Below, piece after piece: positions 240-2,030 of a stretch of 5,122 nt of DNA. The notes beneath the pieces were generated by a model that worked only from the letters and a program-made list of their open reading frames with translations, did no database searches and was not told the origin of the DNA. The position numbers and the translations under genes are program-made. Position 1 is the first letter of the stretch. Each line of letters begins with the position of its first letter. Source of the DNA: Desulfovibrio sp. GTDB lineage: Bacteria > Desulfobacterota > Desulfovibrionia > Desulfovibrionales > Desulfovibrionaceae. The stretch is from positions 1 to 5,122 of the forward strand of contig JALHHV010000146.1 in assembly GCA_022837365.1 (NCBI GenBank), given 5' to 3'.

Positions 240-379
240 CCCCGAATGAGGGATTTCGTTCGCTGGCAAGGAGGGCAAGCCTTGGCCGAGGCGAGCGTAC
301 TTTTCCCGTACGTGACTCTCGCGCAACCGGGGCACAAGGCGCGCCCGACGCCGCCAGCGGGCGAAAGACCCATCCGGGG
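240..379 (+). repeat. Structured intergenic element, copy A (pheS-pheT spacer)
   Basis: The core is 254-366. Outer stem P1 pairs 254-267 (TTTCGTTCGCTGGC) with 353-366 (GCCAGCGGGCGAAA), 14 pairs including two adjacent T-G wobbles. A conserved internal loop (AAGGA at 268-272, GACGCC at 347-352) leads to stem P2: 273-276 with 343-346, a 2x2 internal loop, then 279-284 with 335-340. The top is a bulged hairpin, GCGAG/CTCGC (291-295, 318-322) plus CGTAC/GTACG (296-300, 308-312). Flanks outside the core also pair (CCCCG 240-244 with CGGGG 375-379; GGG 250-252 with CCC 369-371). A second copy lies at 1907-2030. The T-G wobbles become A-C mismatches on the other strand, so the folding RNA, if any, would be the plus strand; hence the strand given. 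The element begins 7 bases after the pheS stop codon in the direction of the genes. Role unknown. Confidence 0.75.
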
Positions 380-386
380 CCAGTGG

Positions 387-1384
387 CTACGTAAACTGCG
401 ACAGAAACCGCACATCATTCTCGAAAAACATGCGCAGGTCGCCGATACCGTACTTGAGCATGGCCACGCGTTCCACGCCGAGGCCGAAGGCGAAGCCGGT
501 GTACTCTTCTGGATCATAGCCCACGGCGGTGAACACGGCGGGGTCCACCATGCCGCAGCCCAGGATTTCGACCCAGCCGGTGGTCTTGCACACCCGGCAG
601 GGTTCGTTGCCACCTCGGCGCTGGGCTCGGTGAAGGGGAAGAAGCTGGGGCGGAAGCGGACCCTGGTGTCGCCGCCGAACACGGTGCGCAGGAACGAGGT
701 GAGCGTGCCCCGCAGGTCGGCCATGCTCACGCCCTTGTCCACCATCAGTCCTTCGATCTGGTGGAACATGGGGGTGTGCGTGATGTCCGAGTCGCGGCGA
801 TAGACCTTGCCGGGGGCGATGATGGCCACCGGGGGCTTGCGCGCCAGCATGGTGCGCACCTGCAACGGCGAGGTGTGGGTGCGCATCAGGATGGACTCGG
901 TGACGTACAGGGTGTCCTGCATGTCGCGCGCCGGGTGTTCGGCGGGCATGTTCAACGCTTCGAAGTTGTAGTGGTCCATCTCCACTTCCGGCCCGGTCAC
1001 GATGTCGTAGCCGAGGCCCCGGAACACGGAGCAGATTTCCTCCATGACCAGGGTGTCCGGGTGCAGCGAACCGCGCCACGGCGCGCGGCCGGGCAGGGTC
1101 GGGTCGAAGCGCGAAAGCGCGGCGGCCTCGCTGGCGGCTTCGAGGGTGGCCTTGCGGCCTTCGAAGCGCTCGGTGAGGGCCATCTTGACGCCGTTGGCGG
1201 CCTGCCCCAGGCGGGGCCGGTCCTCGGGCGAAAGTTCGGGCAGGCGGCCCATGATCTGCGCAAGACGCCCCTTGCGGCCAAGGAAGGCGACGCGCAGTTC
1301 CTCAAGCTCGGTCAATGACGAAGCCTGGTCCAGGCCTCTTTCGAGTTCCGGGACCAGGCTTTCCAGTTCCTTGAGAAGGTCCAT
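387..1384 (-). pseudogene. pheS: Phenylalanyl-tRNA synthetase alpha subunit, frame broken by a short internal loss
   Basis: This is the catalytic alpha chain of PheRS, partner of PheT. Starting from ATG at 1384, 258 codons read in one frame to about 611. They contain the N-terminal coiled-coil arm (about residues 1-90), the [19 protein letters not shown] stretch, motif 2 around [20 protein letters not shown] (from residue 192) and [14 protein letters not shown] (residues 246-258). Another frame then resumes with [18 protein letters not shown] and runs through motif 3 ([20 protein letters not shown]) to the stop at 389-387. Family members normally carry about a dozen residues with a CxxCGGKG-like segment between EV and the second CxxC; here they are absent and the frame is shifted. 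If read without repair, the first frame runs on to 194 with an unrelated tail. The start is 21 bases after rplT with a poor ribosome site (GGGG). In an essential gene, an artefact is the likeliest explanation. Gene identity is certain; real inactivation is not. Confidence 0.88.
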
Positions 1385-1405
1385 GCGTAGAGACCCCGTG
1401 GGGGG

Positions 1406-1759
1406 TTAGTTGAGTTTCGAGGCGGCGAGTTGCGCCAGCTTCGCGAAATCTTCCTTCTCGCGCACGGCAAGGTCGGCAAGCACCTTGCGGTTCAGGGAGA
1501 TGCCGGCAAGGGTGAGGCCGTGCATGAACTTGCTGTACGACAGGCCGTGCATGCGGGCGCCGGCGTTGATGCGCAGGATCCACAGCTTGCGGAATTCGCG
1601 CTTCTTCACCTTGCGGTCGCGGAACGCGTACATCCACGAACGTTCCACGGCCTCGCGGGCGGTGCGGTACAGCTTGCTGCGGCCGCCACGGAAACCCTTG
1701 GCCGCGTCCAGATACTTCTTGTGACGCCTGTGGGAGGCGAGACCTCTCTTCACGCGCAT
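1406..1759 (-). CDS. rplT: 50S ribosomal protein L20
   Basis: L20 binds 23S rRNA early in assembly of the large ribosomal subunit. The 117-residue product has the usual length and opens with [20 protein letters not shown], the very basic extended N-terminal tail. The globular RNA-binding part follows, with the L20 signature around [17 protein letters not shown] (residues 53-69) and SYSKFMHGL (74-82). The reading frame is open upstream to 1909, but ATG at 1759 is chosen because it gives the family N-terminus and has a strong GGAGG site 6 bases upstream (1770-1766). It follows rpmI by 282 bases, an unusually long gap filled with a structured repeat and hairpins, and is 21 bases from pheS. In other bacteria L20 represses its own operon by binding the mRNA; the long structured leader leaves room for this, but no L20 site can be proved here. 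Confidence 0.97.
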
Positions 1760-1783
1760 GGAATACCTCCATCGTGATCTTGA

Positions 1784-1886
1784 CTCCGCGAGGCGAGAGA
1801 CCGGGCCAGCGGAGCGGATAAGTGTAAAGTGCGGGAGATGCGCCCCGATAGGGGCTGCCTTTCCGGGCGCTGTCCCGGCAAAGGCA
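1784..1886 (-). promoter_or_regulatory. Hairpin-rich rplT leader, possible autoregulatory mRNA region
   Basis: Read on the minus strand toward rplT, the leader forms a long hairpin at 1886-1856 (TGCCTTT, bulged G, CCGGG; loop ACAGCG; CCCGG, AAAGGCA; 12 pairs). A GCCCC/GGGGC hairpin with TATC loop follows (1855-1842), then CTCCGC/GCGGAG (1814-1784) around a 19-base loop. The last one ends 13 bases before the GGAGG ribosome site. No T-run follows any of them, so they are not intrinsic terminators. The hairpins are seen in the sequence. A role in L20 control is inference from the known self-repression of L20 operons, and no rRNA mimic was identified. Confidence 0.35.
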
Positions 1887-1906
1887 ATAACGCCGGACAT
1901 GGGCGG

Positions 1907-2030
1907 CATTCAGGAAAATTTCGTTCTCCGGCAAGGAGGACGAGTCTTTTGCGAAGGGAGTGTACTCTTAGGTACTCGACCGGAGCAAAAGGCGAGTCCG
2001 ACGCAGCCGGAGGGCGAAAGAATCTGAATG
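1907..2030 (+). repeat. Structured intergenic element, copy B (rpmI-rplT spacer)
   Basis: This is the second copy of the element at 240-379; its core is 1919-2019. P1 pairs 1919-1932 (TTTCGTTCTCCGGC) with 2006-2019 (GCCGGAGGGCGAAA), again 14 pairs with the same two T-G wobbles. The internal loop AAGGA (1933-1937) / GACGCA (2000-2005) is kept. P2 pairs GGAC/GTCC (1938-1941, 1996-1999), then a 2x2 G-A/A-G loop, then 1944-1952 with 1985-1993. The apical hairpin is shorter than in copy A (GAG and TAC at 1958-1965 with GTACTC at 1972-1977). Flanks CATTCAG (1907-1913) and CTGAATG (2024-2030) pair perfectly. In gene direction it begins 11 bases after the rpmI stop codon. Role unknown; it could be an RNA element, a non-autonomous mobile repeat, or a processing or stability structure. 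Confidence 0.78.

Follow-up and report, generated by a model that had tools for sequence, protein, structure and literature searches.

The window analyzed here, a 5,122-nucleotide stretch of DNA from a Desulfovibrio sp. (NCBI GenBank assembly GCA_022837365.1, contig JALHHV010000146.1, positions 1 to 5,122), carries on its minus strand an operon that, judging from its open reading frames (ORFs) and the usual gene order, presumably consists of thrS, infC, rpmI, rplT, and pheS, with pheT probably following pheS at the left edge. A tRNA-Val gene is found at positions 5017 to 5091. In this sequence, pheS is frameshifted, being split between two minus-strand ORFs in different frames (194-1384 and 387-1079), which represents either a real change or an assembly error. 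Two noncoding elements lie in the operon, element 1 behind pheS and element 2 between rpmI and rplT (Table 1). An earlier note, made from this sequence alone, had described them as sharing the loops AAGGA and GACGC, while differing in their stems in a paired manner. All 10 stem positions named there hold the bases claimed, and both loops are present in both elements. The proposed coordinates proved too short at both ends, as the outer stem P0 had been missed. This stem extends the hairpins to approximately positions 240-379 and 1895-2042, so that they adjoin or touch the stop codons of pheS and rpmI. The P0 arms of both copies pair, yet their sequences have departed from the end consensus of the family described below.

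Table 1. Structural features of the two elements and the adjacent stop codons in the 5,122-nucleotide window
Feature	Position(s)	Strand	Basis and remarks
Element 1 core	254-366	+	Fold, alignment of copies, base pairs, and covariance-model match at 247-370 (83 bits)
Element 1 stem P1	254-267 with 353-366	+	Inner stem P2 and apical part lie between the arms
Element 1 loops	AAGGA, 268-272; GACGC, 347-351	+	
Element 1 outer stem P0, left arm	240-252	+	Wider-stretch fold; pairs with 369-379, with one mismatch and one bulge
Element 1 outer stem P0, right arm	369-379	+	Wider-stretch fold and sequence reading
pheS stop codon (TAG)	387-389	-	ORF 387-1079 on the minus strand; gene name by reading
Element 2 core	1919-2019	+	Fold, alignment of copies, and covariance-model match at 1912-2023 (106.5 bits)
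Element 2 stem P1	1919-1932 with 2006-2019	+	Inner stem P2 and apical part lie between the arms
Element 2 loops	AAGGA, 1933-1937; GACGC, 2000-2004	+	
Element 2 outer stem P0, left arm	1895-1913	+	Wider-stretch fold; pairs with 2024-2042
Element 2 outer stem P0, right arm	2024-2042	+	Wider-stretch fold and sequence reading; touches the rpmI stop codon
rpmI stop codon (TAG)	2042-2044	-	ORF 2042-2239 on the minus strand; TAA in a distant clade of the genus (8-genome alignment)

On the plus strand, the cores of elements 1 and 2 fold with z scores of -4.4 and -7.6, respectively, and none of 200 dinucleotide shuffles of either core reached as low an energy. The minus-strand folds are weaker (z = -3.0, matched by a single one of 200 shuffles, and z = -3.9, matched by none of 200), because G.U pairs turn into A.C on that strand. 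The best-folding strand of both elements is the plus strand, which is antisense to the operon; the strand of any copy that corresponds to it is referred to below as the R1 strand.

Both elements belong to a large family. BLASTN searches of the source genome, which is 75% complete, returned 44 matches at E values of ≤10, and a covariance model built from 10 of its copies recognized at least 125 matches at E values of ≤1 and 110 at E values of ≤0.01 among the 150 candidates scored. In the single-contig genome G007, at least 113 of the 150 candidates scored matched at E values of ≤1. With at most 98 candidates scored per genome, matches at E values of ≤0.01 were found in 16 of 39 genomes, the source genome included, with 52 copies in a member of another genus (G015), 11 in G018, and 9 each in G010 and a member of another family (G036). 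A second model, built from 37 diverse copies from several genera and two families, had at least one match in 82 of the 297 genomes of the order (again including the source genome), representing 19 of the 55 genera; only 12 candidates per genome were scored in this survey, so its copy numbers are lower bounds. The carriers are distributed patchily, even inside a single genus. One exact pattern is carried by Nitratidesulfovibrio oxamicus, Nitratidesulfovibrio liaohensis, Desulfovibrio sp. A2, and a Desulfovibrio metagenome-assembled genome. No match to the repeat was detected in the phage and plasmid collections searched.

The repeat does not appear to belong to any known family; the earlier note had been unable to assign it to one. 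Rfam searches gave no match at either element at E values of ≤5 and no match to the repeat in four further loci at E values of ≤1, so that no curated covariance model of a known RNA family applies to the elements. No prior description was found in the literature searched, most subscription journals being outside its reach, and the string “Desulfo” is absent from the accessible part of PMC3733652, a source on REP sequences. Two further readings can be set aside upon visual inspection: the flanks of 85 copies lack the T-run that an intrinsic terminator would have directly behind its hairpin in the direction of the gene, and the reading frame of a small ORF behind the AAGGA motif is not conserved among the copies. 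A near-match to RF02221 (sRNA-Xcc1), with 48.8 bits against a gathering score of 53, lies at positions 19 to 105 of locus L345, a few hundred bases from a copy of the repeat. Several copies (L012, positions 1360 to 1524; L026, positions 1280 to 1550; L005, L003, and L015) contain mini-hairpin modules of ∼50 to 70 nucleotides, inserted in the P1/P2 loop or the apical part, which read CAGCCGTTAGGCGAGC...GCGAGTCTTACGGATG or the reverse of this; L026 apparently contains three of them. In L355 (genome G152), the far flank of one copy begins a second copy, a tandem arrangement.

All copies can be described as a long rod that consists of the outer stem P0, which varies among the copies, and a core with nearly invariant AAGGA/GACG loops. 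For the 10 copies from the source genome, RNAalifold predicted 36 pairs, 18 of them with double changes. Among the 37 diverse copies, double compensating changes were seen in 23 of the 28 stem pairs, standard pairs accounted for 95.4% of the stem cells, and 218 cells had changed on both sides; shuffled data gave a mean of 61 such cells, and sliding the register gave no more than 64. The P1/P2 loop hardly varies (A.G in 36 of 37 copies, G-C in 36, G.A in 35, and A.G in all 37), and we interpret it as a tandem G.A motif. A similar tandem G.A pattern, weaker and only partly conserved, is found in the outer loop (17, 23, and 25 of 37), and an apical tandem G.A motif was judged by eye. The arms of P0 match their own partners (mean pairing score of 12.1 in 85 copies) better than exchanged ones (6.7). 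Along with the shuffled-sequence folds and the covariation in the 37 copies, this rules out a chance palindrome. The stem changes in the copies added here are paired, which, together with the comparison of orthologous copies given below, supports the conclusion of the earlier note that a folded strand has been under selection.

The mismatches suggest which strand that is. Among 107 distinct P0 stems (of 150 elements, those scoring 7 or more, with duplicates and weak ones dropped), the R1 strand has 69 G.T, 15 A.C, and 74 other mismatches (binomial P = 2 × 10^-9). C-to-T changes are usually more common on the coding and leading strands, which would favor A.C here. We therefore read the G.T excess in P0 as a sign of selection on the R1 fold. 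In P1 of 136 cores, a tandem wobble consists of G.T in 194 of 272 cells; outside this wobble, the numbers of G.T and A.C are nearly even (31 and 20).

Comparison of filled and empty sites indicates an insertion of about 147 bp at TA. For 39 of 85 copies, a comparable stretch was available in genome G003, and 12 of these 39 sites were shorter there by more than 120 bases, one of them (L053) with an identity of only about 72%. A wider comparison of filled and empty sites yielded 26 distinct rows, several of which represent one element read from both strands. In L294, L173, L339, and L139, the insert is bordered by TA on both sides, and the flanking sequences can be aligned right to its edge; L294 has TAG at the filled site and TAA at the empty one. 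TA on both sides is also seen in L045 and L041, whose far flanks are more diverged, while L305, L146, L007, and L144 lack a clean TA duplication and the remaining rows contain further changes. By visual inspection, the far side of many copies has T followed by a base other than A. Insertion without duplication would fit some of the TG-flanked copies but not those in genome G129, where both ends read TAG outward-in for 10 of the 12 that were examined. Further, L364, a paralogous empty flank of L345, suggests that the odd side of L345 was once TA. Consensus copies carry the terminal inverted repeats GGGGCTG...CAGCCCC. The repeat is short, present in many copies, and devoid of coding capacity, and its presence or absence at given sites differs between species; that the two elements are copies of such a mobile repeat, with an outer stem, a TA target, and anchoring at stop codons, had not been seen in the earlier note. 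Three copies in G129 (L344, L350, and L371) have the same flank, AGAGCGTTTTGATATTGAAAATAT, the repeat having seemingly inserted in or next to another repeat. At two positions in G003 (C2, 686672, and C1, 187569), sequences resembling the terminal repeat (TAGGGGCTGTT..) are found at TA with no usual core adjacent; these are possible remnants or very diverged copies.

The insertion sites are not random with respect to genes. P0 usually begins where an opposite-strand gene has its stop codon. In G000 and G007 combined, the gene on the 3' side of R1 runs against the copy in 72 of 85 cases (and does not in 13), and in 69 its stop codon is within 60 bases of the model edge, most often at 16. These stop codons are TAG in 59 of 69 cases, compared to 298 of 621 genes (Fisher's P = 10^-9). 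A survey of 1.6 Mb of G003, chosen without regard to known copies, revealed 65 copies, of which 58 are antisense to the neighboring gene and 7 are not. Forty of the 65 are located at a stop codon (32 TAG, 6 TAA, and 2 TGA), compared to 620 TAG, 171 TAA, and 386 TGA for all genes (Fisher's P = 3 × 10^-4); the gene calls came from a codon-usage script and are approximate (∼80% coding).

There is also a bias with respect to replication. As judged from GC skew, R1 has the lagging-strand sense in 49 of the 65 G003 copies (16 otherwise) and in 71 of 97 copies in G007, the latter being those of its 113 matches that have E values of ≤3.3 × 10^-5, with the origin placed by eye at ∼2.65 Mb and the terminus at ∼0.45 Mb. 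Given that the genes in the G003 stretches are balanced (582 leading and 636 lagging) and that the 7 copies lacking the antisense orientation are all lagging, the gene-strand and replication-strand biases each go beyond the effect of the other. Among 21 recent copies found by motif in genomes G129, G152, G190, G296, and G048, an open frame of at least 60 codons terminates on the antisense side in 14 cases and on the other side in 3. The orientation bias was thus already present in the G129 expansion, which includes three copies with identical cores.

The ends of the repeat resemble those of IS5-type elements. When up to 2 mismatches are allowed, the terminal repeat is matched 62 times in forward and 68 times in reverse orientation in G129, compared to 13 and 8 for the reversed-pattern control. 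Among the matches listed, many are paired at a distance of 149 bp, and one such pair covers 827 bp. This 827-bp unit (L375), which has the same ends as the copies, contains two overlapping ORFs that match DUF4096 and DDE_Tnp_1; against the IS5_3 model, they score 105.4 and 101.9 bits, with a whole-protein cutoff of 110. At positions 124 to 881 of L375, an IS5-type transposase is split across the two ORFs, reflecting either frameshifted expression or decay. In G007, locus L341, which has a PF01609 match, is an 846-bp unit with the ends TAGATAGTGTCGTCA; the match and these ends suggest that it is also IS5-type. Three of the eight copies examined in G015 end in TAGACAGT, and two of these closely match TAGACAGTGTCGTCA; the copy ends in G015 thereby match the 846-bp unit of G007, an element from another genome. 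Another copy in G015, L281, has an end of the Nitratidesulfovibrio type. The same core is thus found with several types of ends. Within the genus of the window, PF01609 matches were found in only four of eight genomes, and none of these four loci contains an element with the GGGGCTGTTTCC ends characteristic of the genus; nor was such an IS5-type element found in the G003 and G007 stretches examined.

Element 2 is present in all eight genomes of the genus searched, and its core is identical to that of the window at 96 to 98 of 101 positions. In a distant clade, only 7 to 12 of the 37 P0 positions are alike, and P0 is still paired despite its quite different sequence; in the adjoining intergenic stretch, 81 to 93 of 115 positions are alike. 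The core is well kept, but its coding neighborhood is slow as well, with 109 to 116 of 116 third codon positions alike in rplT and 72 to 74 of 80 in infC. Comparisons of orthologous copies (the 13 of 39 comparable copies that passed the filters) revealed 15 double changes to Watson-Crick pairs and 3 to unpaired bases; single changes led to G.T in 26 cases, A.C in 16, and other mismatches in 26, and 11 led from G.T to Watson-Crick pairs. Eleven of the 15 double Watson-Crick changes lie in two loci, L149 and L153, where the copies may have been exchanged instead of having changed on site. As the two elements in the window are copies of a mobile repeat, the paired differences between them may partly stem from different source lineages and not from change on site.

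We read the repeat as a nonautonomous IS5-type mobile repeat (MITE) with an unusual conserved, strand-specific hairpin core, and we infer that a transposase of the IS5 family acts on it. Stated in full, the repeat would be a noncoding unit of ∼147 bp with TA as its insertion target, chiefly within stop codons, and with a core predicted to fold on one strand, and IS5-family transposases would mobilize it in trans; our confidence in this account is slightly better than even. In a G+C-rich genome, stop codons would be frequent targets of insertion at TA, and the G at the start of the element would turn them into TAG. The R1 strand would matter as a single-stranded nucleic acid, DNA being our choice, in which P0 would bring the terminal repeats together as a single double-stranded end, with the tandem G.A loops presenting a shape that a protein or a replication intermediate could bind. 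Copies would then persist where R1 serves neither as the mRNA strand nor as the template of the lagging strand, and those in other orientations would be lost, because folding there would likely harm the host. IS5-type transposition does not explain the orientation biases, and the MITE frame by itself accounts for neither the retention of the core nor its orientation. Also counting against the account are the failure to find an IS5-type element with GGGGCTGTTTCC ends, the many copies with no TA on the far side, the loci with no clean TA duplication, and the near balance of G.T and A.C in P1 outside the tandem wobble. In element 2, moreover, the pairing has outlasted the sequence of the terminal repeats, which points to a role on the spot; a local role may have been acquired later by old copies, for instance that behind rpmI. 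The function of the core, and whether it acts as RNA or as single-stranded DNA, we likewise infer. A more specific proposal, to which we give somewhat less than even credence, is that a single core defined by its fold has come to be widespread in the Desulfovibrionales by riding on the ends of various IS5-type elements, acting strand specifically in single-stranded form, either in movement or at stop codons.

The main rival of the preferred single-stranded-DNA account is host use as RNA, which we regard as fairly unlikely. The elements, once mobile, would now belong to the host, with the plus strand forming an antisense RNA hairpin at the 3' ends of genes that protects, processes, or insulates the mRNA. 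The tolerance of G.U pairs, the tandem wobble, and the tandem G.A loops are all typical of RNA, and the retention of element 2 throughout the genus and the paired double changes between orthologous copies point in the same direction. However, with the favored strand being antisense in 58 of 65 copies, this explanation requires antisense transcription, and no conserved promoter was seen by eye among the copies. It also has to contend with the gain or loss of copies between species and with the concentration of the double changes in two possibly replaced loci.

Arms could also be kept matched with no selection for folding. Template switching during replication makes inverted repeats perfect, with one arm serving as the template for the other, and it could exchange both P0 arms at once, as seen in element 2. 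This mechanism nevertheless predicts no excess of G.T over A.C, whereas P0 has 69 of the former and 15 of the latter, and it predicts neither a conserved tandem wobble nor loops that are nearly invariant between families, so that it appears improbable as the explanation. A last candidate, a REP-type palindrome mobilized by a RAYT (Y1) transposase through recognition of a GTAG-tagged hairpin, would fit the location behind genes and the TAG at the foot of the hairpin, as described for GTAG REPs in the accessible part of PMC3733652. It has been largely refuted by the search for Y1_Tnp (PF01797), which gave no match in six of eight genomes of the genus, G007 included, and single weak matches in G001 and G003. 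A unit of ∼147 bp that has a terminal repeat at each end and is flanked by TA on either side also contrasts with REPs of 20 to 40 bp with a one-sided GTAG foot, and we consider this origin very improbable.

With its ∼100 copies per genome, placement at stop codons, and strand biases, the repeat lends itself to direct testing of whether folding on one strand drives the spread of such repeats or their use by the host at 3' ends. It also supplies a covariance-model family for the annotation of these genomes. Bacterial MITEs are usually regarded as decayed ends of insertion sequences with a meaningless middle. In this repeat, conservation is found in the middle: the loops are nearly invariant between families, and the stems and ends vary but keep their pairing. 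Like the IS5-family MITEs, it is short and noncoding, has terminal inverted repeats that match those of an IS5-type element (in two lineages), targets TA, and occurs in many copies that are present or absent depending on the species. It differs from them in that the fold of its inner core is conserved between genera and families while its ends are lineage specific, in its strong bias against the neighboring gene and toward one replication strand, and in that no matching IS5 element was found in the genus of the window, matching ends being known from G129 and from G007/G015.

NEMIS and RUP, which are found in other hosts and are compared here by description only, are MITEs that lie beside genes and can be transcribed and fold into hairpins; we know of no core in them that is conserved between host families by covariation. 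Both are named as MITEs in the accessible part of PMC3733652. The same portion of that source defines a REP as a palindrome of 20 to 40 bp. GTAG REPs and BIMEs resemble the repeat described here in being intergenic hairpins present in about a hundred copies behind genes and in that the REP foot often provides a TAG stop codon. Our repeat, however, is much longer, is associated with a TA duplication, and has internal loops that are kept by covariation.
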